Assembly (NCBI RefSeq): GCF_900102915.1
Contig: NZ_FNGG01000004.1
Span: forward strand, 1 to 64,000
Origin: Salinimicrobium catena
GTDB taxonomy: Bacteria > Bacteroidota > Bacteroidia > Flavobacteriales > Flavobacteriaceae
Length of the DNA: 64,000 bases
Direction: 5' to 3'
Shown piece by piece: positions 1 through 56,076 of this stretch. The notes under the pieces are model-generated. The model did no database searches. It had not been told where the DNA came from and worked only from the letters and a program-made list of their open reading frames with translations. The stretch's first letter is position 1. Every line of letters begins with the position of its first letter. The position numbers were made by a program, and so were the translations under genes.

Positions 1-98
1 ACAACTGAGAACTCACAACTGAGAACTCACAACTGAGAACTCACAACTGAGAACTCACAACTGAGAACTCACAACTGAGAACTCACAACTGAGAATCC
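1..98. repeat. 14-bp tandem repeat built of two heptamers
   Basis: Six perfect copies of ACAACTGAGAACTC (1-84) are followed by one degenerate copy (85-98). The 14-mer is itself two related heptamers, so the array belongs to the period-7 family seen throughout the window. The array runs off the left edge, so its true length is unknown. The stop codon of the adjacent glycosyltransferase (83-85, minus strand) lies inside the array. Perfect copies suggest recent expansion and possible variability between strains. Confidence 0.95.
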
Positions 99-1108
99 AA
101 AACCTTCCTCCACTCCTCCCGGACGATCTTCCAATCGAAACTTTCTACCTTCTCACGAGCTGCCTGTGCGATCTCAGCTGCTTTCTCCTGATCTTCCAAT
201 AGCTCTTCCAAGGCAAGCAGCATATCATCGGCGTTTTGTTGCGGCACCAGGTAGCCATCTTTCATGTGGTCAATGAGATAAGGCATACCACCCACATCTG
301 TAGAGATCACCGGAAGGCCCAGGGCCATGGCTTCGATCACACTGATGGGGGTATTGTCAACATCGGTGGAATTAATAAAGAAATCATAGTTTACTGAAAG
401 AGCAGCCCATTCCTTCTTTTTCATTTTTCCGGGAAAACTTATCGGGAGCTCCTTTTCTTTTGCATACACCATGCATTTTCTAAGGGAACCGTCCTTTTCA
501 GGACCAACCATACAGAGTTCCGCATCAGGATATTTCTTCAGGAGCTTTTCATATACCTTCACCGTGAGCATAGGATTGTACCGCTCCTGGAAACGGCGTA
601 CCCAAAGCAGTTTTGGAGCGAACTCCGTCCGCTTTTTATAGGGGTAATCCTCAAGAATTATGGAATTTGGAACGATCTTTACATTCTCTATACCTGCTTC
701 TTTAAAGGCCCTGAATAAGAATTGGGAGGGAGCAATATTCACCAGGGCTTTCCCAAAGAGTTCCCTGCTAAGGTCTTTAGAATTCCTAAGGCGGTGTGGC
801 AGATTTCCCCCGTGTAAAATAGGAATATAAGGCAGGTTCAATTTTTGACACAGCTTTCCGGTGCTATAGGCATAGTAGAAGTTCTGGGCTCCATAGGTAT
901 CGATCAAAACAAGGTCGGTGGTTTTACGGTTGCGCCAGATGAGCTTAAGCATATCGGTGAGGCGCAGGATCTTGTTGTCTTTTGCCGATGCAGTTTTTAC
1001 ATCATAGCCCTCCTGCTTCAACACCTCGCTAAAAAAAGAAATATAGGTAGCGGTGAAGGTGGGATTCGTAAGATTGTTACCTATATAGAGTATTCTTTTT
1101 TTCATCAA
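83..1108 (-). CDS. Glycosyltransferase family 4 (GT-B)
   Basis: A 341-residue protein with the GT-B layout. The N-terminal Rossmann half begins RILYIGNNLTNPTFTATYIS. The C-terminal nucleotide-sugar half has LLWVRRFQERYNP near residue 167 and NTPISVIEAMALGLPVIS near 250-270, the family's E-x7-E type donor site. It should transfer a sugar from a nucleotide donor to a lipid-linked glycan at the cytoplasmic face; donor and acceptor cannot be read from sequence. Its start overlaps the end of the upstream polymerase/ligase gene by 32 bases, so the two are probably co-translated. The last residues and stop are supplied by the 14-bp repeat array. Confidence 0.9.
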   Translation of the reverse strand: MMKKRILYIGNNLTNPTFTATYISFFSEVLKQEGYDVKTASAKDNKILRLTDMLKLIWRNRKTTDLVLIDTYGAQNFYYAYSTGKLCQKLNLPYIPILHGGNLPHRLRNSKDLSRELFGKALVNIAPSQFLFRAFKEAGIENVKIVPNSIILEDYPYKKRTEFAPKLLWVRRFQERYNPMLTVKVYEKLLKKYPDAELCMVGPEKDGSLRKCMVYAKEKELPISFPGKMKKKEWAALSVNYDFFINSTDVDNTPISVIEAMALGLPVISTDVGGMPYLIDHMKDGYLVPQQNADDMLLALEELLEDQEKAAEIAQAAREKVESFDWKIVREEWRKVLDSQL

Positions 1109-2459
1109 CTATGTATAAAAGCGCCAGTCCGTAAACAAAGGCCGGCAGGGCGATCCTCATGGCCGAATGGTTAATGGTAAGGAACCAAAAGGCAAGGAAA
1201 GCGAGAAAATAGTAATTATTTTTGAACTTGGTCCAGAAAACTATGGGAACAAATATAAGAATTAGGACGGCTACCACTCCTAAAATGCCATGTTCTGATA
1301 ATAATCGGCTGATTTCATTGTGTGTGTTGATCTCAATTCCTAAATTTTCCTCGCGGTATTCCCGACCTTTTCCTACACCTATCCCTACGATAGGATGCTC
1401 ATAAAACCCTTGTAACTCTGTTACCACCAATTCCACCCTACCTGTAGTAATATCCTTTTTTAAATTTCCGGCCGCATCCCGACCTTCATATCTATTTTCT
1501 AATAACCCAAACGTTTGAAGTGATGAAAAACTCCAAATACCTATCATTGTAAATAAAAGAACAAAAAGCTTGAACCTTATTTTCACTTGCTCCTGTATAT
1601 CCTGTTTATAATAGAAAAGCATAATAAAAGCTACCATACAGATTACAGCGGTTATTACACCTCCCCTAGAAAAGGTAATTAGAGCTCTGTATCCCATCAT
1701 ACCTAACAGTATAAAGTCTATTAAATTGATAGTCTTATTTTTCACAGTAAAAAGACGAGTCACAAGCAGAAAAGCACCCAACCCAAAAACTGTAGAGATC
1801 TGGTTTGGCCCATAACCACCGGTTGCGGCATAATTTCCCGACAAACTAATGATACCTTCGTGTAACGATGGAGTATACAAGTACAAGTAAAGCATTTGTG
1901 AAAGCAATGGCAACAACAACATCAGGATCACCTTTTGGAAATGACTTTTTTTGATTTTTTTATAGTAACAATAAAGTGCGGCGATTCCTAAAGTCACAGG
2001 ACCTGTAAGATTAAAAGCAACAAGTCTTCTAAAATCTGCTTCATAGCTTACTGTTACAGATGCCACAACAATACCAGGAATTAGAATTAATAAATAGGTC
2101 CAAAAAGGAACTGTTCGTGAAGAAGTTCCTTTGAAGAACATTCCAACTAATAAGAAAAGAATAACCCCATATTTTCCAGTTTCATAAAATAAAAGTGCTC
2201 CTGTCATCCGCCAATAAACCTCAGCCCCCGCAATATAGGCCGCGGCCATAAGGGCTTCATTGTTACGGTTCTCGTTCTGGATGGTAATGAACAGGAAGTA
2301 GCCAAATATTCCAAGGAAGTAAAAAAAGGAAATACCCTCATACAGGTAGATCGCGAAGGCGATCCCAAAATGCAGCAACAGCAGCCGCACATACTCGATC
2401 TTCCCCAGTTTTTCCAGGAGAGCTCTTTGTCGGCTAATATTTATACTTGCGGCATTCAC
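1077..2459 (-). CDS. O-antigen polymerase/ligase-like membrane protein (Wzy/WaaL family)
   Basis: A 460-residue protein with about ten hydrophobic segments. A large loop contains HPIVGIGVGKGREY followed by HNEISRLLSEHGILG (about residues 345-390), the typical O-antigen ligase domain signature. Wzy enzymes polymerise undecaprenyl-linked repeat units in the periplasm and WaaL enzymes ligate finished glycan to an acceptor; the two cannot be told apart from sequence. The start codon is GTG. It sits between two GT4 genes on the same strand. No Wzx flippase is visible in the window, so a ligase role beside the ABC exporter at 29-31 kb is also possible. Confidence 0.85.
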   Translation of the reverse strand: MNAASINISRQRALLEKLGKIEYVRLLLLHFGIAFAIYLYEGISFFYFLGIFGYFLFITIQNENRNNEALMAAAYIAGAEVYWRMTGALLFYETGKYGVILFLLVGMFFKGTSSRTVPFWTYLLILIPGIVVASVTVSYEADFRRLVAFNLTGPVTLGIAALYCYYKKIKKSHFQKVILMLLLPLLSQMLYLYLYTPSLHEGIISLSGNYAATGGYGPNQISTVFGLGAFLLVTRLFTVKNKTINLIDFILLGMMGYRALITFSRGGVITAVICMVAFIMLFYYKQDIQEQVKIRFKLFVLLFTMIGIWSFSSLQTFGLLENRYEGRDAAGNLKKDITTGRVELVVTELQGFYEHPIVGIGVGKGREYREENLGIEINTHNEISRLLSEHGILGVVAVLILIFVPIVFWTKFKNNYYFLAFLAFWFLTINHSAMRIALPAFVYGLALLYIVDEKKNTLYR

Positions 2460-2481
2460 AGGTTACAATATTAAGCAAAAC

Positions 2482-3564
2482 TTATTGTTCGCTATTCTCC
2501 AAAAGGATTTCAGAAAAAAAGCCGATCACCTCCGGGAGCACCCCCTCCCGGGAATATTGCTCCATTACTGTCTTTTTCAGTCGGGCACTGTCATGCAGGC
2601 GTTTTTCTGAATCCTGCATATAGGATCGTATGGCAGTTGCCAGGGCTTCGGGATCACCGGGGGGCACCAGGACTGCGTCTTCCCCAACCACCTTCGGGAT
2701 CTCTCCCACCCGGGTGGCTACCACAGGTAATCCTGCCCTCGCATATTCCAGCAGTGCCACCGGAAGGCCTTCCGAGGCTGATGACAGTACTCCCAGATCA
2801 GCTTGTCTCAACAGATCTGCAACATCCTCCTGCTCCCCGTAAACGAACACCTTTGGTCGTAGCTCGTTTTCTTGGATGAAGTGCTCGATGCTTTTTGAAT
2901 AGGAGTCTTCTAATACCTTTCCTACCAGGTGGAGGCTAAGATGCTTATTATCTTTGAGTAAGGTCTCAAAAGCCCGTAACAAATTCAGGTGATCCTTCTG
3001 GGGTCGAAAGTTGGCCACACAGATGATCCGAAAATCATCAGCCTCTCCCTTGAGTTCTAAACGAGAAACAATTGCCTCCTCAGGAAGGAAATTCCTGAAA
3101 TATCTTACCTGCTTCACCTGCAATTCCTGCAGAACCCAATTCCGTAGGTCTGAATTGACGGTTATCACCCCGTCAAATAAGGAAGAAAAACTTCTTAGCA
3201 GCCCGGCTTTCCTCTGTTTCAGGTCCTTCCCGTAATGATCGTGCCATACCACCTTTATCCCGGGTAGCGATAGTTTCAACATAACTGCCAGGAACCAGGA
3301 AGTACCGTGTGCCTGCACAAGACCGATCCTATTCTGTTTCACGAACTTTCTAAGCTTCCAAAGAGCTGGCAGATCTAAAGAATGCTTTCTGTTCAGATAA
3401 AGATAACCTACGTCACCCGACAATCTTTTCTTCAACAGTCCCTCTTTTCGGGTACAGCACAAAAAAGAACCATCGATCTCTTTCGCAAGGGCATTGGCGT
3501 AAGATACGGCCATTTGCTCGGCGCCACCGGATCGTAAGGTGTCGATTAGCTGTAATACTCGCAT
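2482..3564 (-). CDS. Glycosyltransferase family 4
   Basis: The likely start is the ATG at 3564 (MRVLQLIDTLRSGGAEQMA, the usual GT4 opening). A GTG 36 bases upstream would add twelve polar residues. The 360-residue product has the glycine-rich GGAEQMA loop near the N-terminus, IICVANFRPQKDH in the linker to the second Rossmann domain, and GVLSSASEGLPVALLEYARAG near the C-terminus with the donor-binding glutamates. It is a cytosolic sugar transferase for the surface glycan; linkage unknown. A heptamer repeat block lies just upstream (3611-3638), separating it from the S23 gene. Confidence 0.9.
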   Translation of the reverse strand: MRVLQLIDTLRSGGAEQMAVSYANALAKEIDGSFLCCTRKEGLLKKRLSGDVGYLYLNRKHSLDLPALWKLRKFVKQNRIGLVQAHGTSWFLAVMLKLSLPGIKVVWHDHYGKDLKQRKAGLLRSFSSLFDGVITVNSDLRNWVLQELQVKQVRYFRNFLPEEAIVSRLELKGEADDFRIICVANFRPQKDHLNLLRAFETLLKDNKHLSLHLVGKVLEDSYSKSIEHFIQENELRPKVFVYGEQEDVADLLRQADLGVLSSASEGLPVALLEYARAGLPVVATRVGEIPKVVGEDAVLVPPGDPEALATAIRSYMQDSEKRLHDSARLKKTVMEQYSREGVLPEVIGFFSEILLENSEQ

Positions 3565-3656: not shown

Positions 3657-4061
3657 CTATTGCCCTTGATCCTTTTTAAATTTTGAGCCTTTAAGGTTAG
3701 ATCTATTTAAAAAAGCAATAAATGCCGTGATCTTGGCTATTTCCCTTTCACATTTGCTCGCCAGCCTTTGAAACTCATCTTCTGAGATCAGATTTTTATC
3801 TCTAGCTCGATAAAGTTGCGACTTTAATTCGGTACAGGACCCACGTGAGAAGCTGAGAAAATTGCGGAACTCCAGGTTTCCACCTCTACCAAAGCCTTCT
3901 GCTATATTATCCATGATAGAACCGGAACTTCTGTCCATTTGATTCATAAGAGAATATCTTTTACCCAGTGGTGTAGATTCAAAAAGCTCCTCCAGATCGC
4001 TACATATCTCCCTTGCCAGGACCCAAACCTCCAGATCCTCGAATTTCTCAACCTTACTCAT
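3657..4061 (-). CDS. Four-helix-bundle protein (S23 / 23S rRNA intervening-sequence family)
   Basis: A 134-residue protein with the family hallmarks EKFEDLEVWVLAREI at the N-terminus and SSGSIMDNIAEGFGRG followed by EFRNFLSFSRGSCTEL in the middle. The family forms pentameric four-helix bundles, was first described from insertions in 23S rRNA genes, and is related to the Avd protein of diversity-generating retroelements; its cellular role is unknown. A clear paralogue lies at 47,817. Both paralogues are flanked by inverted heptamer blocks, and both interrupt same-strand polysaccharide genes, which suggests that gene and repeats arrived together. No reverse transcriptase or rRNA is nearby. Confidence 0.88.
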   Translation of the reverse strand: MSKVEKFEDLEVWVLAREICSDLEELFESTPLGKRYSLMNQMDRSSGSIMDNIAEGFGRGGNLEFRNFLSFSRGSCTELKSQLYRARDKNLISEDEFQRLASKCEREIAKITAFIAFLNRSNLKGSKFKKDQGQ

Positions 4062-4086
4062 AATTTTAATATTGGTTCAAAAGCAC

Positions 4087-4114
4087 CTTGAACATTGAAC
4101 GTTAAACGATGAAC
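4087..4114. repeat. Degenerate heptamer block (GTTCAAT class, inverted)
   Basis: Four 7-mers: CTTGAAC, ATTGAAC, GTTAAAC, GATGAAC. The reverse complement reads GTTCATC, GTTTAAC, GTTCAAT, GTTCAAG, matching the block at 3611-3638. The stop codon of the GT4 gene (4102-4104) lies within it, so the last residues of that protein (FIV) come from the repeat. Confidence 0.8.
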
Positions 4115-5427
4115 CTTTTCCCAAGAACTTCCTTTATCCCCCCCTCAAACCTTTCCAGGGTATACTGCTGACTCCATTTTTTAGCTTCATCAGACATTCT
4201 TTTCATTTCCTCCTGGTCACTTAACAAGCTCAGAATTTTCAGAACATTCTCTCCTTTATCCATTGTACATTCTCCTGTCCTGCCTTGAATCCTGAATTTT
4301 GAATTCTGAATGTCTGCCCTCTGTCCTCTGACTACTTCCTTTTCTTCCCCCGTCACTAGAGAAAAGCCTGTTCTCGATACATTCTTCAAACCTGCTGCTG
4401 CAGGCTCTGAAGAATACTCGAACTGACAGATTTTCTGAAGAAATGGGTCCGATAACAATATTCCCCTGCTCCCGTAATCAAGCATCCACGGCACGCAACT
4501 CACAGGAGTGGCAATGGGAATACATCCATAGAACATACCTTCTGCAATGGCTTTTGGCCAGCCTTCAGACCGGGAAGGGAGAATTACAAAATGTGCTTTT
4601 TGATAGGCTATTTTCAAATCCTGCAAAGGCCTGCTGCCATGAAAGATCACCTGCTCACCCAGACCGTGTTCTTTGCAGTAATTTTCCAGGCGGTCCCACT
4701 CGGGCCCGTCTCCGTAGACCTCCAGGCGGGCCCCGATCTCCTCATCTGTGCCTGCTGTATGTATGGCTTCCACCAGCTTCACGGCCTCCAGTGGCTGTTT
4801 TCCCGGTACAAGATTCCCTACAAAAAGAAAGGTCAGCGGACCTGAAAAACGTTTTTCTTCAACTTCCGGGATCTCTTTTTCAGAAAAGGATGCCGTAAAG
4901 AACGGCACCACATTTTTAGATCCCTTGTCCCATTCCCCGTAGACCAGTGCTTGCATATTCCGGGTTAAAAAAGGGTTTTTCAGGATCCACTTTTGCAACC
5001 TGTAGGTCCATGGCTGTTTAGCCGCCGGATCCCAGTTTCCCGCGTATTTAGCAGTCTTGGATTTCTTCGGAAAAAAGATCTGGCAGATGCAGGCAATAAG
5101 GCCAATGTTTCCCGGGCAGCGTAGATGCAGATGATCCGCCCGATGCATGGCGGCAAGAGTTCTGGCAAAGATCACCGGGAACTTCAGAATTGCTACCAGA
5201 GCGTTTTTAGGGCTAAGCAGATCAAAAGCGGGAATAGAGGTAAAGATTAGACGGTCATGCCGATAAGCTTCGGCATTGAATCTCAGTTCTTTTCTAAGTG
5301 GAGCAACGACCTCAACTTCCTTTACCAATTGCAACCACAAATTCATTTCCTTTATGTAGGGGGCATAGGCGAAATAGGAGCTGCCTTTCGGTACATGTTC
5401 TACATGAGTAAAAATCACGAATCTCAT
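4102..5427 (-). CDS. Glycosyltransferase family 4 with an in-frame repeat-derived insertion
   Basis: A 441-residue GT4-like enzyme, about 65 residues longer than most relatives. GT-B features are LTFLFVGNLVPGKQPLEAV and the donor site VILPSRSEGWPKAIAEGM. After ILLSDPFLQK the sequence diverges into a low-complexity stretch, then resumes a normal C-terminal helix at NVLKILSLLSDQEE. Part of the extra stretch (about 26 residues, including VVRGQRADIQNSK) is encoded by heptamer repeats at 4259-4335 that resemble the intergenic blocks. The frame is intact. The insert lies in a surface region before the C-terminal helix, so activity may be retained. It overlaps the upstream methyltransferase by 4 bases. 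Confidence 0.85.
   Translation of the reverse strand: MRFVIFTHVEHVPKGSSYFAYAPYIKEMNLWLQLVKEVEVVAPLRKELRFNAEAYRHDRLIFTSIPAFDLLSPKNALVAILKFPVIFARTLAAMHRADHLHLRCPGNIGLIACICQIFFPKKSKTAKYAGNWDPAAKQPWTYRLQKWILKNPFLTRNMQALVYGEWDKGSKNVVPFFTASFSEKEIPEVEEKRFSGPLTFLFVGNLVPGKQPLEAVKLVEAIHTAGTDEEIGARLEVYGDGPEWDRLENYCKEHGLGEQVIFHGSRPLQDLKIAYQKAHFVILPSRSEGWPKAIAEGMFYGCIPIATPVSCVPWMLDYGSRGILLSDPFLQKICQFEYSSEPAAAGLKNVSRTGFSLVTGEEKEVVRGQRADIQNSKFRIQGRTGECTMDKGENVLKILSLLSDQEEMKRMSDEAKKWSQQYTLERFEGGIKEVLGKRFIV
4259..4335. repeat. Heptamer block inside a coding region
   Basis: Eleven consecutive 7-mers fill this 77-base stretch, with the core GAATCCT, GAATTTT, GAATTCT, GAATGTC and then TGCCCTC, TGTCCTC, TGACTAC. 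The second motif is the reverse complement of the CAGAGGA class seen at 40,350, 44,864 and 54,764. It is translated within the GT4 gene at 4102-5427. Confidence 0.8.
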
Positions 5428-43050: not shown

Positions 43051-43071
43051 GACATTTTTACTACTTTAGCT
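43051..43071 (+). promoter_or_regulatory. Promoter-like segment upstream of the deacetylase
   Basis: Identical to 40715-40735 except one base. It contains TACTTTAG. It directly follows the end of a TTGCGAG fragment and is followed by a heptamer leader. Confidence 0.55.
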
Positions 43072-44850: not shown

Positions 44851-44863
44851 GTGAGATGATTTT

Positions 44864-44905
44864 CAGTGGTCAGTGAGCAGAGGACAGAGGAAAGAGGACA
44901 ATTGT
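44864..44905. repeat. Degenerate heptamer block (CAGAGGA class)
   Basis: Six 7-mers: CAGTGGT, CAGTGAG, CAGAGGA, CAGAGGA, AAGAGGA, CAATTGT. Confidence 0.85.
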
Positions 44906-45055: not shown

Positions 45056-45090
45056 TACCCACCCTCCTATGCTTAAGATTCGGCGGGCGG

Positions 45091-45131
45091 GCAACCGACA
45101 ACTGATAACGGAAAACTCACAACTGACGACC
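45091..45131. repeat. Degenerate heptamer block before neuA
   Basis: GCAACCG, ACAACTG, ATAACGG, AAAACTC, ACAACTG, ACGACCA up to the ATG. Same class as 1-98. Confidence 0.8.
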
Positions 45132-45839: not shown

Positions 45840-45881
45840 ATTGTTTGTAGTTTATGGTTTGTGGTTTGTAGCTTGTCGTCG
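45805..45881. repeat. Heptamer block (CAATTAA then TTTGTGG classes)
   Basis: Eleven 7-mers: TTTTGTC, AATTAAC, AATCAAC, AATTAGC, AGATTAA, ATTGTTT, GTAGTTT, ATGGTTT, GTGGTTT, GTAGCTT, GTCGTCG. It contains the neuA stop codon. Confidence 0.85.
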
Positions 45882-46065
45882 AAATTGAAGTGAAATCTCC
45901 GTAAAATTTTAGGCTGTTTGAGCGAACAAAATTCTTCTAACGCGCACCTAGATTTCCCGCGAGTTCCTAAAATTTAGGAGTTGAACGAAAATTTCAGGCA
46001 TGTTTTCGTAAGCCTAGACTTTTTTGGTTCTTTTTTGGGCGATGCAAAAAAGAACAGATACATTT
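45882..46065. repeat. Flavobacterial intergenic element ending in a perfect hairpin
   Basis: Carries two short A/T palindromes (including CCTAAAATTTAGG) and, at 46027-46055, an 11-bp perfect stem GTTCTTTTTTG / CAAAAAAGAAC with a 7-base loop. From memory, similar sequences recur between genes of Flavobacteriaceae. It lies immediately before asnB and may form its leader. No gene is seen in it. Confidence 0.55.
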
Positions 46066-46070
46066 ACCAT

Positions 46071-47780
46071 ATGTGCGGAATAGCAGGTATAATTGGACCA
46101 AATGCAAGCGAAGAAGACCTGGACAAAATGCTTCAGGTCCAAAAACATCGTGGACCCGATCACATGGGAGCCTATGTTGATGTAGGCTTCGCAACTATTG
46201 GCCATAACCGCCTATCGATCATAGACCTTTCAGCAGCAGCGAATGAACCTTTTAATGATAATTCCGGAAGGTATTTCCTGACCTTTAATGGAGAGATCTA
46301 CAATTATAAGGAACTAAGAAAGGAGCTAAAGGATTCCTATGACTTCCGAACCGCTTCAGACACCGAAGTACTTTTGGCCGCTTATATTAAATGGGGCAAA
46401 GCCTGCCTGGATAAATTCAACGGCATGTTCGCCTTCGCTATCTGGGATTCTGAAGACAAAAAGCTTTTTGCAGCCAGAGATCGCTTTGGAGTGAAGCCTT
46501 TTTACTATACCCTACAAAAAGGTCATTTCTATTTCAGCAGTGAGATCAAAGCCCTGCAGGCGGCTACGGAAAGCAAGACTCCTAACCAAAAAGTATGGGC
46601 AAATTATTTCACCTGGGGTTCCTACGGAATGCCTTCAGAAACTTTCTTTTACGAAATACTACAATTGCCGGGAGGTCATTTTCTTGAACTTTCTGAGGGA
46701 AATCTGAATATCCAAAGATGGTATGACTTTGAGACCAGGGTCATGGACAACCAAAAACAATTGACTTTTGAGGAAGCAAAAGAGGCTTATCTCGAGCTCC
46801 TCAAAGACAGCATTAAACTCCGGTTTCGAGCTGATGTTCCGGTAGGATTTAACCTGAGTGGCGGGGTGGACAGTTCCCTCCTGCTCGCACTGGTCAACCT
46901 GTTCGAGGAGAAGAAAAGAATTCAGGCGTACACCTTTTACACCGGAGACTCACGATATGACGAACTTCGCTGGGTGGAACAGATGATCGCCACTACCGAA
47001 AATCCGCTGAAAAAGAACTATTTTTCAGCTTCTGAAGTTCGCGATACCGCTAAAAAAATTGCCAGACTCCAGGATGAGCCTTTCGGCGGAATTCCGACGC
47101 TGGCCTATTCAAGGATCTTTCGGCAGGCACACCAGGACGGAGTGAAAGTTCTGCTTGACGGACAGGGAATGGACGAACAATGGGCCGGCTATGATTATTA
47201 TCAAACTGAAAATGCGGGAACCATTCAGGGCACGGGCCAAAAAAATCCTTTTCGGCCCAACGTTCTGGCTCCGGAATTTGCCGCTTTGGCAGAAAAACCC
47301 GAATACCCGGCACCATTTGACAACCGGCTGCAGAATCTGCAGTACCGCGATCTTTTTTACACCAAGATCCCAAGGGCGCTGCGGTTCAACGATCGGGTCT
47401 CCATGGTCCACAGCACCGAACTTAGAGAACCGTTTCTCGATCACCGCCTGGTGGAATTCGCTTTTTCACAACCTGCAGAATATAAGATAAAGAACGGCAC
47501 CGGTAAATATCTGCTGCGGGAGTTGCTCAAACCGATGGTTCCAAAAGACATCTCTTATGCCCCAAAACGGCCGTTACAAACTCCACAGCGAGAATGGCTG
47601 GCAGAAGAACTTCGGCCTTTGGTGGAATCAAGCCTTGAAAATCTTAAAAACTCTTCTTTTTCAGAATGGTTTGATTTTCCAAAACTTGAAAAGGAATGGA
47701 AGAAGTATTTAGACGGAGACCGGGAAAGCAGTTTTCATGTGTGGCAGTGGGTGAACCTATCATTTCTCAGCGAGAAATGA
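46071..47780 (+). CDS. asnB: Asparagine synthase, glutamine-hydrolysing
   Basis: The start at 46071 puts Cys at position 2 (MCGIAGIIGPNASEEDLDKM), the nucleophile of class-II amidotransferases; the frame is open 90 bases further upstream but that part is repeat DNA. The 569-residue product has HRGPDHMGAYVDVGFATIGH, FAARDRFGVKPFYY and the synthetase PP-loop GFNLSGGVDSSLLLALVN near residue 260. It converts aspartate and glutamine to asparagine, or amidates a glycan carboxyl, given its position at the end of the nonulosonate genes. The last 30 coding bases form half of a perfect inverted repeat. Confidence 0.92.
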   Translation: MCGIAGIIGPNASEEDLDKMLQVQKHRGPDHMGAYVDVGFATIGHNRLSIIDLSAAANEPFNDNSGRYFLTFNGEIYNYKELRKELKDSYDFRTASDTEVLLAAYIKWGKACLDKFNGMFAFAIWDSEDKKLFAARDRFGVKPFYYTLQKGHFYFSSEIKALQAATESKTPNQKVWANYFTWGSYGMPSETFFYEILQLPGGHFLELSEGNLNIQRWYDFETRVMDNQKQLTFEEAKEAYLELLKDSIKLRFRADVPVGFNLSGGVDSSLLLALVNLFEEKKRIQAYTFYTGDSRYDELRWVEQMIATTENPLKKNYFSASEVRDTAKKIARLQDEPFGGIPTLAYSRIFRQAHQDGVKVLLDGQGMDEQWAGYDYYQTENAGTIQGTGQKNPFRPNVLAPEFAALAEKPEYPAPFDNRLQNLQYRDLFYTKIPRALRFNDRVSMVHSTELREPFLDHRLVEFAFSQPAEYKIKNGTGKYLLRELLKPMVPKDISYAPKRPLQTPQREWLAEELRPLVESSLENLKNSSFSEWFDFPKLEKEWKKYLDGDRESSFHVWQWVNLSFLSEK

Positions 47781-47789
47781 TAGGTTCAC
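47751..47789. repeat. Perfect 18-bp inverted repeat across the asnB stop codon
   Basis: GTGAACCTATCATTTCTC, a 3-base loop AGC, and its exact reverse complement. The left arm is asnB coding sequence; the stop codon is in the right arm. It could act as a transcript terminator or stabiliser, but no T-run follows directly, so it is not a canonical terminator. Confidence 0.9.
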
Positions 47790-47818
47790 TGTTCGTAGTT
47801 CGTTGTTTTTTGTTCTTT
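47784..47818. repeat. Degenerate heptamer block (GTTCGTT class)
   Basis: Five 7-mers: GTTCACT, GTTCGTA, GTTCGTT, GTTTTTT, GTTCTTT. It begins inside the right arm of the inverted repeat and touches the stop codon of the S23 gene. Confidence 0.8.
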
Positions 47819-48263
47819 AATCTCTCTTAAATTTAATCCCTTTAAGATCTGATTTTCTAAGGTATGCCATAAAAGCTCCTATACGATTATCAGCTTCTAT
47901 ACAGTGGGAAGAAACCTCATGAAATTGTTCTTCAGAGATCAACTTTTTATCCAGAGCCCGATACAACTGGGATTTGAATTCAGTTGCGGAGCCCTTTGAA
48001 TAACTGAGAAAATTGATAAATTCCTGATTCCCTCCTCTACCATACCCTTCAGCTATATTATCCATTATAGAACCGGAACTTTTTTCCATCTGATTTCTTA
48101 GAACGTAGTTTTTTCCTAAATCAGTTTCCTGAAAGAGAATTTCAACCTTTTGACAAATTATACGGGCTAATTTCCACACTTCAAGATCTTCAAACTTCTC
48201 TATTTTCCCTATATCTCGATTTTTCAACAACAAACCACAAACAACAAACAAAAAACTACTCAA
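47817..48263 (-). CDS. Four-helix-bundle protein (S23 family), N-terminus extended into repeat
   Basis: Paralogue of 3657-4061: IEKFEDLEVWKLARIICQKV, SSGSIMDNIAEGYGRGGNQE and EFKSQLYRALDKKLISEEQF are nearly the same. The open frame begins with TTG at 48263 and its first 15 residues are encoded by heptamers. No ATG exists before the conserved core, so the true start is a TTG in or after the repeat (48233, 48230 or 48227), or the gene has lost its start. It lies directly downstream of the kinase gene. Confidence 0.8.
   Translation of the reverse strand: MSSFLFVVCGLLLKNRDIGKIEKFEDLEVWKLARIICQKVEILFQETDLGKNYVLRNQMEKSSGSIMDNIAEGYGRGGNQEFINFLSYSKGSATEFKSQLYRALDKKLISEEQFHEVSSHCIEADNRIGAFMAYLRKSDLKGIKFKRD
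48225..48259. repeat. Degenerate heptamer block (AAACAAC class)
   Basis: Five 7-mers: CAACAAC, AAACCAC, AAACAAC, AAACAAA, AAACTAC. The reverse complement is GTTGTTT/GTGGTTT, so it is inverted relative to 47784-47818 across the S23 gene. Confidence 0.8.
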
Positions 48264-50724
48264 AATTCCTCATCCATTCCCGCCATTTCTTTTTGAGTCG
48301 GCTGGTGGTTGGGTTTTGCTCATGGTAAGCCTTACCATACTGGCCATAGCCATAGCCATAGCCATAACCGTAGCCATAACCATAGCCGTAACCATATTTG
48401 GCGCTGTGTACAAAGTGATTAAGCACGAAGCTGATGTTCTTGACCTCGCCCTTGTTGTACTTCTCGTTGATCACTTCAAGCATTCCGCGCTTGGTGTAAT
48501 CCTGACGAATGAGGTACAGGGTGGCATCCGCATATTTGATGAGGTTGAGGGCATCTGCAACTACTCCTACCGGCGGAGTATCCAGAATGATGTAATCGTA
48601 TCGCTCTCTTAATTCCTCCATCATCGCGTCCATTTGTTCGGTCATCAACAATTCGGAAGGGTTTGGAGGAATAGGTCCCGAAGTGATCACATCCAGGTGC
48701 GGGATCATACTGGGCTGGATGATACTGTCAAGGGTTTCCTGACCAATAAGGTAATTTACGATCCCATGGTCGTTATTGATCTTGAAATCATCAAAGATCT
48801 TCGGTTTTCTAAGGTCGGTTCCGATCAATACGGTTTTCTTTTCACTCAAGGCGAAAATGGTCGCCAGGTTCATGGAGCAGAAGGTCTTCCCTTCCCCCGA
48901 AACCGAGGAAGTTACAAGTAATGTTTTGGACCCGGTCACCCCAGCCTTTTTATACATGAATTGAAGGCTCGATCTCAGCCCCCTGAAGCTTTCAGCAATG
49001 GCCGATTTAGGTTTCGTAAATACAGCAAGATTCGTATTCAAACGGCTCTTCCCTATCATTCCAAGAATAGGAATAGGTGAAAGTCTTGTCACCTCCTGGG
49101 CGTTATGCACGTTGGTGTTTAGAAAGACCAGTAAAAATACGAAGGTGAGCGGGATCATTCCGCCGACCATTAAGGCCATCACATAGTTCAACTGAGTATT
49201 GGGTCCTATCTGTCCGCCGCCGGTATCCTTGGCGGTATCGATCACCATTACATCGCTTACGTTCGCCGCCTTGATAAGTCCGGCTTCACTCCTTTTTTCA
49301 AGGAAGAGGTTATAGGTCTTCTCGCTAAGTGAATATTTACGCTGGATCTTGAGCAGGTCCTGTTCTTCCTGCGGAAGTTTCCTGATCTCGGCTTCGGCAT
49401 TGGCGATATCCTGATTGATGTCCCTCAGCTCCTGCCTCAGCAGCCTCTGGGAAGAATCCATGTTCTCCAGCAAAACTGCCTTAACGGCATTGATCTGCCG
49501 GTCGATATTGTCAAATACCGGGGAGTTCTCCTGAAGGGAATACTGGTATTTACGTCTTTCTTCGGCCAGGGAAAGGATACGCCCTACCCCGCTCACGATG
49601 CTACCTTCATTGATACCCGCCACAGAAGGGGCCGGCACATCAGAATAATCCTGCCGGGTCTGCAAATAGTCCTGCAGGGTCTGGTAATAAGCTAACTGCC
49701 TATTGATCTCTTCCTTCCGCATATCAAGGGAGGTAAGTTTGCTGTTCAGCTTGCTGGTTTCCGCGGAAAGGTCAATAATGGCATTCTTATTCCTGAAGTT
49801 ATTCAGCTCATCTTCCACGTTCTGCAGCTCCATGGATTTAACTGCAAGACTGCTGTCAATAAAACGGATGGTCTTGGTAGCGAAAAGGTTCTTGCGCTCC
49901 AGCATATTCTCGCTCAAAACCCGAACGGTACCATTTAGATAATCTACGATCTCCGGTTTATTGTTACCCGTAAGCGATAAGTTAAGTACTGAGGATCCCT
50001 GGGCCTGCGGACTCACCGCAATTCCCTTGAACCTGCCCACCGTGCCGTCAAAATGGTTGAACCGCACATAAAATGGTTTGCCTATTGCAGGAGCCACCTC
50101 GGTAGGCACAAGCCTTCCGCTAAAGAACGGCAGATCGATATGCTCATTAATCTGATATTCCTTCTTAAATTCCCCCGGCTCTACCACAACCGAAGAATAA
50201 TCCTTGGTACGATAATTAAAGACAGAAGCCGTGTTTCCCGAGAAATTGGTTTTCAGGGTGAAAGTTTCCGGGTCTGAAAATGTGATCGTAAAGGTATTTC
50301 CCTGCGCCTGATAGGCAGTGCTGTCTGCGACCAACTTAAAAGGAGTGAATCCATAGGCATTGACCCTTTGGTACTCCCCGTCCTGCTGATAGGAAATATA
50401 ATACTGAAGCCGCTCTACCACCTCCTCGTTATGAGAACGCGATTTCAAAATGGTAATGGCCGTATTTACCTTGTCTGAAGTACCTCCCCAGTTAAAGGTG
50501 AGGCTGGTATTACTGGTAAAAAAGGGGTTCTGATCGTCTTTAATGCTGATGGAATTGCCCAGCCTGTAAACCGGCAGCTTCCTCACATTATTATAATAAG
50601 CCACGGCAAGGCTGATCCCGATGGACACCAGGATAAGCTGCCAGTAACTAAATATCTTAAGCACAAAACCTTTAAAATCAAAGGTGGAGCCTACGTCGGA
50701 TATGTGATCATCTTCATTTGCCAT
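48256..50724 (-). CDS. wzc: Wzc-like polysaccharide co-polymerase and tyrosine autokinase
   Basis: An 822-residue inner-membrane protein. A first membrane segment at about 28-48, a long periplasmic region with a coiled coil, and a second segment near 512-535 (YVMALMVGGMIPLTFVFLLV) are followed by a BY-kinase: VTSSVSGEGKTFCSMNLA (Walker A), VLIGTDLRKPKIFDD (Walker A') and YDYIILDTPPVGVVADALNL (Walker B). A Tyr-Gly repeat tail near 785-805 gives many tyrosines for autophosphorylation. It controls chain length and export with the Wza-like protein 3 bases upstream. Confidence 0.93.
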   Translation of the reverse strand: MANEDDHISDVGSTFDFKGFVLKIFSYWQLILVSIGISLAVAYYNNVRKLPVYRLGNSISIKDDQNPFFTSNTSLTFNWGGTSDKVNTAITILKSRSHNEEVVERLQYYISYQQDGEYQRVNAYGFTPFKLVADSTAYQAQGNTFTITFSDPETFTLKTNFSGNTASVFNYRTKDYSSVVVEPGEFKKEYQINEHIDLPFFSGRLVPTEVAPAIGKPFYVRFNHFDGTVGRFKGIAVSPQAQGSSVLNLSLTGNNKPEIVDYLNGTVRVLSENMLERKNLFATKTIRFIDSSLAVKSMELQNVEDELNNFRNKNAIIDLSAETSKLNSKLTSLDMRKEEINRQLAYYQTLQDYLQTRQDYSDVPAPSVAGINEGSIVSGVGRILSLAEERRKYQYSLQENSPVFDNIDRQINAVKAVLLENMDSSQRLLRQELRDINQDIANAEAEIRKLPQEEQDLLKIQRKYSLSEKTYNLFLEKRSEAGLIKAANVSDVMVIDTAKDTGGGQIGPNTQLNYVMALMVGGMIPLTFVFLLVFLNTNVHNAQEVTRLSPIPILGMIGKSRLNTNLAVFTKPKSAIAESFRGLRSSLQFMYKKAGVTGSKTLLVTSSVSGEGKTFCSMNLATIFALSEKKTVLIGTDLRKPKIFDDFKINNDHGIVNYLIGQETLDSIIQPSMIPHLDVITSGPIPPNPSELLMTEQMDAMMEELRERYDYIILDTPPVGVVADALNLIKYADATLYLIRQDYTKRGMLEVINEKYNKGEVKNISFVLNHFVHSAKYGYGYGYGYGYGYGYGYGQYGKAYHEQNPTTSRLKKKWREWMRNFE
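48344..48396. repeat. Hexamer tandem repeat encoding the Tyr-Gly tail
   Basis: CCATAG / CCATAA / CCGTAG type hexamers, about nine in a row, encode alternating Tyr and Gly. A change of copy number keeps the frame and would alter the number of phosphorylatable tyrosines. Confidence 0.85.
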
Positions 50725-51623: not shown

Positions 51624-51672
51624 TGAATTTAATTGTTCACTGATAATTGTTAATTGCTAATTGACCATCGAT
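51624..51672. repeat. Degenerate heptamer block (AATTGTT class)
   Basis: Seven 7-mers: TGAATTT, AATTGTT, CACTGAT, AATTGTT, AATTGCT, AATTGAC, CATCGAT. It supplies TTG triplets at 7-base spacing upstream of the ABC-F promoter. Confidence 0.82.
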
Positions 51673-51685
51673 TTAGCTACTTTTG
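51653..51685 (+). promoter_or_regulatory. Promoter of the ABC-F gene
   Basis: ATTG at 51653-51656, a gap of 21, then TACTTTTG at 51678-51685, an exact TAnnTTTG. The -33 half lies inside the heptamer block. It precedes the GTG start at 51700 by 14 bases. Confidence 0.6.
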
Positions 51686-51699
51686 CAAAAAACAACTGT

Positions 51700-53565
51700 G
51701 TGAATTACTTATCTGTAGAAAATATAGCCAAGGCGTACGGGGAAAGGGAATTGTTCTCAAAGCTTTCCTTCGGGATCAATGAAGGACAAAAAGTGGGTTT
51801 TGTGGCCAAGAACGGAACCGGAAAGACCTCGCTTTTGAACATACTGTCTGGAGCCGATACTCCCGATGAAGGCCGGGTAGTTTACCGCAAAGACATTACA
51901 ACCGCCTTCCTTCCGCAGGAGCCCAACCTCGACCCTAACCTCACTGTAGAGCAGACCATATTCGCTTCTGAAAATGAGATCCTGAAGGTTATCGAGCGCT
52001 ATGAAAAAGCTCTTGAAAATCCGGAAGACACCGAAGCTTATCAGAAAGCTTTCGAGCAGATGGAAGCGCACCAGGCGTGGGATTTTGAAACTACCTATAA
52101 GCAGATCCTTTTCAAACTGAAGCTGGAAGACCTGCACGCAAAGGTGGGCGGATTAAGCGGCGGACAAAAGAAAAGGCTGGCTTTGGCCGCCATGATCCTC
52201 AACAAGCCCGACCTTATCATCATGGATGAGCCCACCAACCACCTGGACCTGGACATGATAGAGTGGCTGGAAGAATTCTTCAGAAAGGAGAATTTCACCA
52301 TCTTTATGGTCACCCATGACAGGTATTTCCTGGAGCGGGTGTGCAATGAGATCGTGGAGCTGGAAGATGGGCAGCTGTACACCTATAAAGGCAATTACTC
52401 CTATTACCTGGATAAAAAAGAAGACCGCATAGCCCTGGAGCAGACAAATACAGATAAGGCGAAGCAGCTTTTCAAAAAAGAACTGGAATGGATGCGCCGG
52501 CAGCCAAAAGCCCGTACCACAAAATCCAAATCCCGGATTGATGATTTCCACGACATCAAAGAAAGAGCTTCCAAAAGAAGAAAGGACCACCAGGTGCAGC
52601 TGGAGATCAACATGGAGCGACTGGGGAACAAGATCATTGAGCTGCATAACATCTCCAAGAGCTATGGCAACAAAGAACTGCTGCACAAGTTCAATTATAA
52701 CTTTCAGCCGGGAGACCGACTTGGAATCATCGGGAAGAACGGAACCGGAAAATCCACTTTTCTGAACATCCTTACCGGGGCGGTGCGGCCCGACTCCGGA
52801 AAGATCGTGATCGGAGAGACCATCAAATTTGGATACTATACTCAACGAGGTATAGAAGTCAAAGAGGGTCAGAAGGTGATCGACGTGATAAGGGAGTTCG
52901 GCGATTACATTCCACTGAAAAAGGGGCGGCAGATATCTGCCCAACAATTGCTGGAGCGCTTTCTTTTTGACAGGAAGAAGCAGTATGATTATGTAGAAAA
53001 ACTGAGCGGGGGTGAAAGAAAAAGGCTGTACCTGTGTACCGTGCTGATCCAGAACCCGAATTTCCTGATCCTGGATGAGCCTACCAACGACCTTGACATC
53101 GTGACCCTGAACGTGCTGGAGAATTTCCTGCTCGACTTTCCCGGCTGCCTTATAGTCGTTTCCCACGACCGGTATTTCATGGACAAGATCGTGAATCACC
53201 TGTTCGTATTCAAGGGCGATGCGGAGATCGAAGATTTCCCCGGAAATTACACAGATTACCGGGAGTACGAATCCAGCAAAGAACCTGAGCCGGCAGAAAA
53301 ACCTGAAGCGTCTACCGAGAAAAAGGAATGGAAAAAAGAAAAGACCTCCACCGGCCTTAGCTACAATGAGCAGAAGGAATACCAGAAGCTGGAGCGGGAG
53401 ATCCACAACCTGGAAAAGAAAAAGGAAGAGTTCCAGCAAAAATTCCTGCAGGAGCTGAGTCCCGATGAGATCGCGAAAGCTTCAATGGAATTGAAAAAAA
53501 TTGAAGACGAAATAGAAGAAAAGACCGAAAGGTGGTTTGAACTGGGAGATAAGATGGAAGGATAA
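51700..53565 (+). CDS. ABC-F family ATPase (Uup/EttA-like)
   Basis: A 621-residue soluble protein with two ABC domains and no membrane segment. The start is GTG at 51700 (VNYLSVENIAKAYGERELFS), since the -7 element ends just before. The first domain has VAKNGTGKTSLLNILSG and LSGGQKKRLALAAMIL; the second has GIIGKNGTGKSTFLNILTGA and LSGGERKRLYLCTVLIQNP. A linker with KARTTKSKSRIDDF and a C-terminal coiled coil (about 550-621) fit Uup-type proteins, which act at the ribosome or in DNA handling. Monocistronic; ends at a hairpin with a T-run. Confidence 0.92.
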   Translation: MNYLSVENIAKAYGERELFSKLSFGINEGQKVGFVAKNGTGKTSLLNILSGADTPDEGRVVYRKDITTAFLPQEPNLDPNLTVEQTIFASENEILKVIERYEKALENPEDTEAYQKAFEQMEAHQAWDFETTYKQILFKLKLEDLHAKVGGLSGGQKKRLALAAMILNKPDLIIMDEPTNHLDLDMIEWLEEFFRKENFTIFMVTHDRYFLERVCNEIVELEDGQLYTYKGNYSYYLDKKEDRIALEQTNTDKAKQLFKKELEWMRRQPKARTTKSKSRIDDFHDIKERASKRRKDHQVQLEINMERLGNKIIELHNISKSYGNKELLHKFNYNFQPGDRLGIIGKNGTGKSTFLNILTGAVRPDSGKIVIGETIKFGYYTQRGIEVKEGQKVIDVIREFGDYIPLKKGRQISAQQLLERFLFDRKKQYDYVEKLSGGERKRLYLCTVLIQNPNFLILDEPTNDLDIVTLNVLENFLLDFPGCLIVVSHDRYFMDKIVNHLFVFKGDAEIEDFPGNYTDYREYESSKEPEPAEKPEASTEKKEWKKEKTSTGLSYNEQKEYQKLEREIHNLEKKKEEFQQKFLQELSPDEIAKASMELKKIEDEIEEKTERWFELGDKMEG

Positions 53566-54268: not shown

Positions 54269-55141
54269 ATGTATATTTTTATTTCCTACATAAAGTTCCT
54301 CCTCCGCTCCACCAATCAGCATGGGGTGCATTCGCCATTCGTGTACAGCCTTGTGACGAAATGCTTATATGATCACGAGAAATATCCTTCTTATCAGAAG
54401 ATCAAGAAGCATCGCAAGTCATTAATGAAAGACAAAAGAAGCATCCGCGTAAACGATTTTGGCGCCGGTAGCAGGGTGTTCAAATCAGATGAACGAAAGA
54501 TTTCAGAAATAGCAAAAAATGTCGGGATCACACCAAAACGAGCTCGGCTGCTCAACCGCCTGGTGAACTATCTGAATGTAAAAAATGCCTTGGAACTGGG
54601 AACTTCTGTGGGACTGGGAAGCGCCGCCATGGCTGCAGATAATAAGGTGAAGGTGTTCACTATTGAAGGCTGCCCGGAAACATCAAAGATCGCTGCGGAA
54701 AAATTCAGGGAGTTCGGTTTGAATAACATTGAACTGAAAGTGGGGAAATTTATGGAAGTTTTAGAGGACAAAGGTCAGTGGACAGAGGACACGGAGAAAA
54801 ATTCCAAATTCCAAATTCCAAATTCAAAATCTGTTTCCTTTAACCCAAAACAACCGACAACTGACAACTCACAACCGACAACAACCCACTACGACCTCAT
54901 CTACATCGACGGCAATCACCGCAAAGAGGCCACGCTAAGTTATTTTGAACTTTTGCTTTCAAACGTGCACAATGACAGCGTCATGATCTTCGACGATATC
55001 CACTGGTCGCAGGAAATGGAGGAAGCCTGGGAAACGATCAAAGAACACCCGGCTGTAAAGGTCACCATAGACACCTTCTTCTGGGGATTTGTCTTCTTCC
55101 GAAGAGAACAGGAAAAAGAACATTTCGTCATCCGGGTCTGA
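54269..55141 (+). CDS. SAM-dependent methyltransferase with an in-frame heptamer insertion
   Basis: A 290-residue O-methyltransferase-like protein. The N-terminal part includes TNQHGVHSPFVYSLVTKC. VKNALELGTSVGLGSAAMAA is motif I, KVFTIEGCPETSKIAAEKF the acidic site, and YDLIYIDGNHRKEATLSYF the strand-4 motif with the catalytic-site Asp. Between VLED and YDLIYID lie about 40 residues absent from normal relatives, including KNSKFQIPNSKS and QPTTDNSQPTTT, encoded by heptamer repeats at 54764-54889. The frame is intact. The insert precedes the strand-4 motif, which might affect folding. Target unknown. Confidence 0.85.
   Translation: MYIFISYIKFLLRSTNQHGVHSPFVYSLVTKCLYDHEKYPSYQKIKKHRKSLMKDKRSIRVNDFGAGSRVFKSDERKISEIAKNVGITPKRARLLNRLVNYLNVKNALELGTSVGLGSAAMAADNKVKVFTIEGCPETSKIAAEKFREFGLNNIELKVGKFMEVLEDKGQWTEDTEKNSKFQIPNSKSVSFNPKQPTTDNSQPTTTHYDLIYIDGNHRKEATLSYFELLLSNVHNDSVMIFDDIHWSQEMEEAWETIKEHPAVKVTIDTFFWGFVFFRREQEKEHFVIRV
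54764..54889. repeat. Heptamer block of 126 bases inside a methyltransferase gene
   Basis: Eighteen 7-mers. The first group is GAGGACA, AAGGTCA, GTGGACA, GAGGACA; then AAATTCC three times and AAATTCA; then CGACAAC, TGACAAC, TCACAAC, CGACAAC. Each group matches a class seen in intergenic blocks elsewhere in the window. Its length, 126, is a multiple of both 7 and 3. Confidence 0.87.
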
Positions 55142-55154: not shown

Positions 55155-55912
55155 GGCCACGAATGCACGGATTTCTTTTTTAAAATTCTGAAGGTCTTGA
55201 TTCTTGACTCCAGATTCTTTTTTCTTTGAAAGACATACACTGTATTTGAAAAGCTTTGGCCACGAATTCACGAATATATTTTTGAAATAGTCGGACCTAC
55301 AAAACAGAACCTTGGTTGATACTGAAATGTCACACTGAGCCAGCGACCGGAGGGAGCGGCGGTCGAAGTGCTTAGGTGCGCATATCATCATTCTTCCTGT
55401 ATATGATCCATTCCTGAACTGCATCGGCGGGAAAATATTAGGATTTAATATTTTTGGCCACGAATGCACGAATATATTTTTGAAATAGTCGGTCGTACAA
55501 AACAGAACCTTGGTTGATACTGAAAAGTCACACTACCCAGCGACCAGAGGGAGCGGCGGTCGAAGTGCTTAGGCGCACATATCATCATTCTTCTTGCATA
55601 TGATCCATTCCTGAACTGCATCGGCGGGAGAATGTTAGGGTTTAATATTTTTGGCCACGAATGCACGAATTTCTTTTTTAAAATCCTGAAGGTCTTGATT
55701 CTTGACTCCAGATTATTTTTTCTTTGAAAGACACACACTGTATTTGAAAAGCTTTGGCCACGAATTCACGAATATATTTTTGAAATAGTCGGACCTACAA
55801 AACAGAACCTTGGTTGATACTGAAAAGTCACACTGAGCCAGCGACCGGAGGGAGCGACGGTCGAAGTGCTTAGGTAGTTTTTGGCCACGAATGCACGAAT
55901 ATATTAGCCCCG
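55155..55912. repeat. Composite A-B-B-A-B repeat (GGCCACGAATGCACGAAT family)
   Basis: Units begin with GGCCACGAAT[GT]CACG at 55155 (A, 103 bp), 55258 (B, 198), 55456 (B, 197), 55653 (A, 103), 55756 (B, truncated to 127) and 55883 (30-bp stub). The A units are near-identical; each B unit ends with GAGCCAGCGACC-type sequence and GGTCGAAGTGCTTAGG. Short open frames on the minus strand here are repeats of one another and not genes. The gap 55142-56125 holds no gene. Confidence 0.9.
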
Positions 55913-55927
55913 GCTCTCGATCCTGAA

Positions 55928-55983
55928 ATTGGAATTTGGAATTTGGTACTTGGAATTTGGAAGTTGGTGCTTGGAATTTGACC
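55928..55983. repeat. Degenerate heptamer block (TTTGGAA class)
   Basis: Eight 7-mers: ATTGGAA, TTTGGAA, TTTGGTA, CTTGGAA, TTTGGAA, GTTGGTG, CTTGGAA, TTTGACC. Confidence 0.87.
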
Positions 55984-56041
55984 CTCCTTCGCAAATGCTC
56001 CGGCGGGTATATGCTTGAAATTCCCACTCATAATTCTTTTT

Positions 56042-56076
56042 CTGATAATTGATAATTGTCCATTGTTAATTGCATT
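56042..56076. repeat. Degenerate heptamer block (AATTGTT class)
   Basis: Five 7-mers: CTGATAA, TTGATAA, TTGTCCA, TTGTTAA, TTGCATT, upstream of the LolD-like gene. Confidence 0.82.

Follow-up and report, generated by a model that had tools for sequence, protein, structure and literature searches.

The window analysed here is the whole of a 64,000-nucleotide stretch of contig C9 (C9:1-64000), which carries polysaccharide genes and, between and around them, tandem arrays of degenerate 7-base words, referred to below as heptad arrays. It comes from a genome of 3.26 Mb in 26 contigs, which we assign to a flavobacterium because the nearest SecA among the 80 loci kept is that of Salegentibacter salinarum (87 percent). 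Arrays were located by a lag-7 scan, with 21 comparisons per run and a cut-off of at least 15 or at least 16 equal positions. The original prediction had counted at least eighteen period-7 blocks in the window, and these proved real: 20 lag-7 blocks were found at 15/21, and periods other than 7 and its multiples show no comparable excess. At the 16/21 cut-off, the window contains 16 blocks at lag 7, 9 at lag 14, 3 at lag 21, and 2 at lag 28, and every remaining lag within 3-30 yields 0-2 blocks. Ten first-order Markov sequences scanned at 15/21 gave 0, 1, 0, 0, 0, 0, 1, 0, 1, and 3 blocks. Tandem Repeats Finder reported mostly period 7 and its multiples at the array sites, and a comparison of the window with Rfam at gathering scores returned no match; a single RNA family or another period is ruled out on these grounds.

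The 15/21 block list, from which simple microsatellites were filtered out, gives the arrays together with their flanking open reading frames (ORFs) and assigns no strand to the arrays themselves. At the extreme end of the contig, a perfect 14-mer made of two heptads (ACAACTG/AGAACTC) is repeated 6.8 times (1-95; also called by Tandem Repeats Finder). An array of GAACATT/GAACGTT/AAACGAT heptads follows at 4081-4117, and joined TGAATTC-type and CTCTGTC-type classes occupy 4282-4340. The main series begins with a TTTGGAA-class array between two minus-strand genes (35835-35881; also called by Tandem Repeats Finder). Two arrays touch a pyruvyl-transferase-like ORF on the minus strand (35995-37017), namely a CGTTTTC-class array in its 5' part (36801-36839) and a GTAAACA/AAAACTG-class array near its start (36956-36990). 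Joined CAGAGGA and GTTTGTG classes (40346-40379 and 40383-40425) lie at the 3' end of a glycosyltransferase ORF (39225-40385), a GTAAACA-class array (43070-43102) stops 4 bases short of the ATG of ORF 43107-44090, and a CAGTGGT/CAGAGGA-class array (44862-44905) starts 11 bases past the stop of ORF 44062-44850. ORF 45069-45839 has a CAACTGA-class array at its start (45088-45127) and joined CAATTAA and GTTTGTA classes (45806-45834 and 45839-45880) spanning its end. Further on are a GTTCGTT-class array 3 bases past the stop of an asparagine-synthase-like ORF (47784-47825; ORF 45981-47780), a CACAAAC-class array, G/T-rich on the minus strand, that overlaps by 7 bases the stop of the minus-strand ORF 48256-50724 (48222-48262), and a TTAATTG-class array upstream of an ABC-F ATPase ORF (51629-51672; ORF 51661-53565). 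The tool-called start of the latter ORF falls within the array, so the true start is probably later. A two-block cassette (54763-54886), described below, lies inside a methyltransferase gene. The last two arrays are an AATTTGG-class array between a 197-bp tandem repeat and an ABC transporter gene (55919-55975; also called by Tandem Repeats Finder) and a TAATTGT-class array 52 bases before ORF 56126-56830 (56039-56073), which is the final block at 15/21.

The absence of blocks after position 56,076, as originally described, holds at 15/21, and a weaker 14/21 run is present at 62,771, as are others elsewhere in the window, for example, at 11,125. No block was detected within 4,340-35,835. The claimed concentration at gene borders of the polysaccharide locus stands in part: the arrays are dense between 35.8 and 56.1 kb and are closer to gene borders than random placement predicts, but most of the polysaccharide operon is array-free. 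Word classes recur on both strands, as had been proposed, both in the block list and in the word counts.

Several other features accompany the arrays. A 23S rRNA intervening-sequence-type protein (PF05635) is encoded at 3657-4061, near polysaccharide genes, and the array at 4081 starts 19 bases past its upper end. The Bacteroidetes -7 promoter element has the consensus TAnnTTTG; it is resembled by TACTTTTG at about 51678-51685, directly after the array that precedes the ABC-F gene, with TTG units at 7-base steps upstream of it. Tandem Repeats Finder also detected repeats of approximately 123-128 bp with the core TGAGATTGCTTCGGTCGTACCTCCCTCGCAAAGACG at 42420-42972 and 40482-40715, and the 197-bp tandem repeat mentioned above, in about two copies (55255-55682), preceding a heptad array. 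An imperfect 6/12-base repeat (GCCATA) is found at 48343-48396 within ORF 48256-50724, which matches AAA_31 and GNVR.

Distribution in the genome, the genus, and the phylum

The arrays had been presented as a property of one window; they occur on contigs C24, C14, C11, and C5 as well and across the genus. Within the 861,577 bases scanned (about one quarter of the genome, window included), period 7 accounts for 30 non-coding and 14 'coding' blocks, the latter status being assigned by a simple ORF rule, and period 14 for 22 and 8; no other period of 4-42 exceeds 4 non-coding blocks. A head-to-tail 7-base unit beyond chance and a mostly non-coding location, two marks of the STRR and long-simple-sequence-repeat (LSSR) types, are both found here. 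The arrays are clustered: the 17.6-kb contig C11 has 10 blocks, a 40-kb part of C5 has 5, 400 kb of C24 contain 11, 320 kb of C14 contain 2, and the 20 kb of C9 that adjoin the window contain none. Expressed per non-coding kb, the values are 2.54 for the window, 1.74 for C11, 0.75 for the 40 kb of C5, 0.31 for C24, and 0.04 for C14.

In four congeners, 200 kb each contained 58 (G004), 40 (G007), 34 (G005), and 14 (G010) blocks, and a second 200 kb contained 8 in G007 and 9 in G004. The non-coding intervals of nine genus segments hold 134 blocks, compared with 0-4 in 20 dinucleotide-preserving shuffles, and the expected excess outside genes across the genus was thereby borne out. Together with the Markov sequences, the shuffles rule out chance or base composition as the source of the arrays. 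The excess extends across the phylum in a weaker and patchy form, with 42 non-coding blocks of period 7 around 80 SecA loci (1.58 Mb) and no more than 18 for any period outside the multiples of 7. Period 8 is represented by 12 non-coding blocks in G004 and 4 in G007, and the copying step may be 7 with an occasional 8. One flank of an insertion sequence (IS) copy, L286, carries (GCACCAAA)x3.

Word vocabulary

Exactly repeated words were collected from the window's genome, G010, G005, and G007, giving 110 tokens; the forms quoted are rotations of the printed forms. G004 is too close to G007 and was therefore left out of this set and of the G-C polarity set described below; it is included in a 69-word count set, the 326-array set, the 258-locus flank comparison, and the 134-block shuffle test. 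The tokens comprise 62 distinct words versus 98.7 expected from random draws of intergenic heptamers, and identical words form 117 pairs versus 13.4 expected (maximum of 40 in 1000 draws). The proposal that spacing rather than sequence is conserved is accordingly half right: the period is strictly 7, but the words recur. The commonest words are CAAATTC (9), CAATACT (8), and CAAACCA and TAATCCC (5 each). A GGG/CCC run is present in 5 of the 62 words (9 of the 110 tokens). TAACTGA is absent from both the 69-word and the 62-word sets, and CAACTGA is present.

Of 247 genomes sampled across the phylum, 38 contain tandem CAAATTC; the window's genome has 17 copies, G130 has 47, and G185 has 18. Outside the window's genome, the word has 167 copies in 37 genomes versus 44 copies in 15 genomes for a backward-word control that is itself a heptad (totals transcribed by hand). 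Doubled AGTGGTC was found in 8 of 9 congeners versus 3 of 22 other genomes searched. The vocabulary in common with other genera amounts to 16 of 57 tokens versus 5.0 expected; 7 of the 16 are CAAATTC, the rest of the overlap is weak, and the comparison is biased because its four 100-kb stretches were chosen from genomes and places found with CAAATTC. Among 258 array loci of five species, 152 are similar to another locus in the array alone, 45 also in at least 25 flanking bases, and 61 in neither. Words thus recur mostly without copied flanks, and spread by the copying of larger segments was rejected on these counts. Mismatches are unevenly distributed over the seven columns (p<0.05) in 26 of 89 arrays tested.

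Position and strand polarity at gene borders

Polarity was analyzed in 168 fully intergenic arrays, a border being taken as within 30 bp. Their mean distance to an ORF border is 106 bp versus 133 bp for random placement in the same intergenic region (p 2e-5). At gene 3' ends, the arrays have a strand polarity: the strand pointing outward from the gene has more G than C in 49 arrays and fewer in 9, compared with 310 versus 379 at array-free ends (Fisher p 4e-9). At gene starts, the corresponding counts are 9 and 3, and array-free starts are biased alike (545 versus 326). The border effect is one of G versus C, not of T versus A. Measured as G+T minus A+C, the skew of the sense strand at starts has a mean of -0.254 in 30 arrays versus -0.020 in controls. 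Scored by G+T skew in individual genomes, the polarity stands at 15/4 in the window's genome, 12/3 in G005, 9/5 in G007, 14/4 in G004, and 4/5 in G010, and at a weak 6/4 in four other genera pooled. Quadruplex formation is an unlikely reason for the polarity, since most words have no GGG tract.

In the larger set of 326 arrays, 208 are near no border, 85 adjoin a stop, 30 adjoin a start, and 3 adjoin both. Two further patterns gave no signal. Growth at the outward end was rejected on a comparison of array regularity at the inner and the outer end (15 versus 18, with 41 ties), and a converging order of G/T and A/C arrays was not significant (14 versus 7, p 0.19).

Length change, persistence, and drift in congeners

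The sister species G007 and G004 align in 45 blocks with a mean identity of 88 percent (up to 95). Clean array length differences between them are 7 bases at two sites (G007 145792 and 164058), 14 bases at one (133904), and 84 bases at another (G007 150790 versus G004 158118); many further sites have overlapping multiple changes. The predicted variation of copy number in 7-base steps is therefore seen at these sites, but it does not carry over to the 36 non-coding array-overlapping intervals that differ in length, where multiples of 7 number 7 versus 5.1 expected. At one site (G007 62589 and G004 58024), the two species have different words. Four 3'-end sites were compared in congeners (29 of 30 fetched loci read), and a block near the gene 3' end was retained in 3 of 4, 5 of 6, 5 of 11, and 5 of 8 loci at sites A to D, respectively, with both copy number and letters changed. 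Array sites thus persist while their words drift.

An array site of a different kind is found inside the methyltransferase gene at 54269-55141 (plus strand), identified as an ORF with a domain match. Its reading frame passes through a cassette of two lag-7 blocks (54763-54835 and 54842-54886), which contain the AGAGGAC, AAATTCC, and ACAACCG/ACAACTG classes in that order and are translated as NSKFQIPNSK and QPTTDNSQPTT within the stretch matched to Methyltransf_24. The cassette is present at the same site in all 10 parsed loci of the 11 found in the genus (own included), each with an open frame, which is what the parsing script looked for; the eleventh locus (G008), unparsed, has an open frame of 261 codons. 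No match to the gene was found in G006, which is 75 percent complete. By eye, the ten cassettes draw on a small common set of word classes, similarly ordered but differing in number, the shortest in G001 and the longest in G011. For phase-variation contingency repeats, in which a change of length switches a frame or promoter, the pertinent observation is that the cassette is in frame in the 10 parsed loci, as read by a script that sought open frames.

A palindrome of the type GGCGCGGATTTGCAATCCGTGCC stands between cassette classes in 5 of the 10 (G004, G005, G007, G010, and G011; by eye). In segments of G004, G005, G007, and G010, this REP-like palindrome (L318-L327) lies within 60 bp of an array in 16 of 23 copies, a proximity shared by 8.6 percent of non-coding positions drawn at random. 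Because several of the copies are orthologs of one another or stand in tandem, the count of separate palindrome-array events is smaller than this.

An IS3-family element at array edges

Some arrays adjoin an IS3-family element of 1313 bp that has two ORFs with HTH_Tnp_1 and rve domains, terminal repeats, and a 3-4 bp target duplication. A search by terminal repeat found 10 copies (L259-L268) in 4 of 12 genus genomes, the window's genome having one at C24:879825, and no match to the terminal-repeat pattern in the array-bearing G005, G007, and G011. Target duplications were recognized by eye in 7 copies (L259, L260, L262, L264, L265, L266, and L268) and are not clear at L261, L263, and L267. To the left of the element, 7 of the 10 copies have a lag-7 run (at least 15/21) within 80 bp, and to the right 3 do; on the left, lags 5, 6, 8, 9, and 10 each score 0 of 10. 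Among 19 terminal-repeat hits in seven other genera (L269-L287), a lag-7 run is found on the left in 10 and not in 9, with 1, 0, 2, and 1 runs at lags 5, 6, 8, and 9. At four sites compared between congeners, the element lies at the array's downstream edge, and at each of them some element-free congeners carry the array; we conclude that the arrays came first and are targets of the IS3-family element.

On the right, the element ends with GTTCA in G004 and G009 and with GTTTA in G010. Of the 7 genus copies whose target duplication is clear, 4 have TCA before it. The element may favour targets that resemble its own end.

Relation to known heptanucleotide repeats

Published accounts describe heptanucleotide arrays in cyanobacteria, Xanthomonas, Beggiatoaceae, and five Bacteroidetes; an excess of such repeats in bacteria has been reported since 2007, and these sources give no settled cause or role. 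As cited in later papers (PMC4692102, PMC4679880, and PMC4060949), Mrazek et al. (2007) found heptanucleotides to be the commonest long unit in most genomes, and citing papers also attribute to them the proposal of polymerase-footprint slippage. Their survey, as described there, concerned repeated units in a row, and a rule of this kind would often overlook degenerate arrays like the present ones. The original prediction knew of no such system in Bacteroidota, but MacGregor (2015; PMC4679880) reports TAACTGA repeats in Beggiatoaceae, cyanobacteria, and five Bacteroidetes, Gramella forsetii among them; the paper also mentions 'other heptamer direct repeats' for Gramella and for Aequorivita, and larger assemblages of heptamers for Elizabethkingia. 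Like the arrays described here, the TAACTGA repeats have a 7-base unit, are mostly intergenic and close to starts or stops, and can be lacking from close relatives whose gene neighbourhood is the same. They differ in consisting of one word, which in the main species mostly stands directly upstream of starts, whereas the present arrays have many words and lie more often at stops than at starts.

The heptameric G4 (quadruplex) repeats of Rehm et al. (2015; PMC4692102), GGGAATC in Xanthomonas and GGGGA(C/T)T in Nostoc, follow the same rule downstream of ORFs, in that the G-richer strand is the coding strand. Their upstream rule, by which the G-richer strand is the non-coding one, corresponds by G-C here to the 9 versus 3 arrays at starts, set against a control of 545 versus 326. 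Those repeats form one G-rich quadruplex-capable family, unlike the 62 words of four species found here, 57 of which have no GGG/CCC, and, as far as the available text of that paper goes, an IS at the array edge and a conserved in-gene cassette are features of the present arrays only. Tandem repeats kept in frame within genes are also known from Borg elements (PMC9879509), where they make disordered protein regions; these elements are archaeal and extrachromosomal, and no family link is claimed. Already known are the existence and the excess of heptanucleotide arrays, their occurrence in some Bacteroidetes (PMC4679880), and the polarity of G4 heptamers (PMC4692102). The open-access papers listed by our searches yielded no multi-word heptad system of this density in Bacteroidota, no vocabulary of many words recurring at unrelated loci, and no mention of polarity for non-G4 heptamers, an in-gene cassette, an array-edge IS, or a link to Ku.

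Origin of the arrays

With moderate confidence, we interpret the arrays as heptanucleotide short tandem repeats of the STRR or LSSR kind, produced by unit-wise 7-base copying followed by decay. An array would arise outside coding sequence, frequently where a gene begins or ends, and would gain or lose entire 7-base units, each new one copied from its neighbour; growth would probably proceed by slipped-strand or repair synthesis with a preference for one strand. Point mutation would then decay the array with its phase kept, leaving runs of similar, non-identical words. Such a process would need no dedicated enzyme and would give the arrays no common regulatory role; they are tolerated inside at least one gene and offer landing sites to the IS3-family element and perhaps to the REP-like palindrome.

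A number of observations weigh against this interpretation. Plain slippage leaves the recurring vocabulary (117 versus 13.4 pairs) and the polarity unexplained, and it gives no reason for a step of 7 over 6, 8, or 9, period 8 being visible in the 12 blocks of G004. Most arrays (208 of 326) are near neither border, the outward-G bias at gene starts is no different from that of array-free starts, and the polarity by G+T skew is missing in G010 (4 versus 5). Neither array end is the more regular one, multiples of 7 show no excess over the 36 array-overlapping intervals, and array change is not fast, as the G004 and G007 cassettes differ, by eye, mostly by substitutions.

The most interesting rival is a less likely one, that the arrays are scars of double-strand breaks: a break between genes would be trimmed back to the gene edge, its 3' end would be extended on its own template in 7-base steps, and Ku-dependent joining would seal it. 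The extended strand would point outward from the gene and be the G-richer one, and two extended ends would leave converging arrays. The 49 versus 9 polarity at gene 3' ends, the A/C-rich sense strand before starts, and the proximity of arrays to borders are all in its favour, and Rehm et al. (2015) report the same polarity and converging pairs in Xanthomonas. As the polarity suggested extended broken ends, Ku (PF02735) was examined, as the second and last family tried, first in 24 chosen genomes and then in all 247 (own included). All 10 near-complete genus genomes have Ku, and tandem CAAATTC occurs in 14 of 32 Ku-positive versus 24 of 215 Ku-negative genomes (p 2.8e-5), these being raw counts that ignore genome size and phylogeny. 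Within the family, any copy of the word is found in 9 of 11 Ku-positive versus 4 of 16 Ku-negative genomes (p 0.006) and at least 2 copies in 8 of 11 versus 1 of 16 (p 0.0006); in genus g2, the corresponding figures are 7 of 7 versus 1 of 7 (p 0.005) and 6 of 7 versus 1 of 7 (p 0.03). The backward control word likewise tracks Ku (6 of 32 versus 9 of 215, p 0.006).

On the other side, the association is weak outside the family (5 of 21 versus 20 of 199, p 0.07), and CAAATTC as a single word is a poor proxy for array content. Ku is reported to go with larger genomes (PMC7719229), as it does in genus g2, where 6 of 7 Ku-positive versus 2 of 7 Ku-negative genomes reach 4.8 Mb. Four array-rich genomes gave no Ku match, namely G130 (47 copies), G256 (15), G057 (7), and G081 (5). 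Converging order is not significant here and pairs are few in Nostoc, and no sign of one-end growth was seen.

It is quite unlikely that the arrays are regulatory, serving as binding sites or as unstructured leaders that a protein with a 7-base register would recognize in RNA or DNA; MacGregor proposed S1, Csp, or Csr proteins in this role for the TAACTGA repeats (PMC4679880). Some arrays do stop just short of an ATG and have an A/C-rich sense strand, and the uneven mismatch columns of 26 arrays could reflect such a register. However, arrays lie mostly at neither border and at stops more than at starts, their words vary from site to site and, at a single site, from one sister species to the other, and one array is inside a coding region; uneven columns also result when variant units are duplicated, the perfect 14-mer array being an example.

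A dedicated telomerase- or reverse-transcriptase-type enzyme that adds heptads is very improbable. The G-richer outward strand would suit it, as would the telomere-like TTAGGGA (the complement of TAATCCC), which ranks first in the set containing both G004 and G007 and fourth without G004. The reverse transcriptase named in the original prediction is not supported as the motor: RVT_1 is matched in 6 of 12 genus genomes, G010 among them, but not in the window's genome or in G004, G005, and G007, the three richest of four congeners sampled. The RVT_1 version is largely refuted by this result, and the many words per genome and the equal regularity of the two ends also speak against a copying enzyme, although one of a non-RVT_1 family is possible. 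That the IS3-family element makes the arrays is scarcely credible and largely refuted, since the left-flank runs at its copies are outweighed by arrays at element-free sites and in genomes with no terminal-repeat match.

Beyond the favoured reading of unit-wise copying and decay, a wider and doubtful proposition is that degenerate heptad arrays in several bacterial phyla are one phenomenon, in which strand-polar self-templated copying at broken ends by genes, with the G-richer 3' strand outward, is followed by end joining; lineages with Ku would accumulate arrays, and these would act as landing strips for transposons and as seeds of new protein segments. The methyltransferase cassette shows that repeats of a non-coding type can sit in-frame inside a conserved gene. 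With arrays at up to 58 blocks per 200 kb, a strand polarity at gene 3' ends that resembles the one known from unrelated phyla, sister species that can be compared, and Ku varying within a genus, the cause of such arrays becomes testable.

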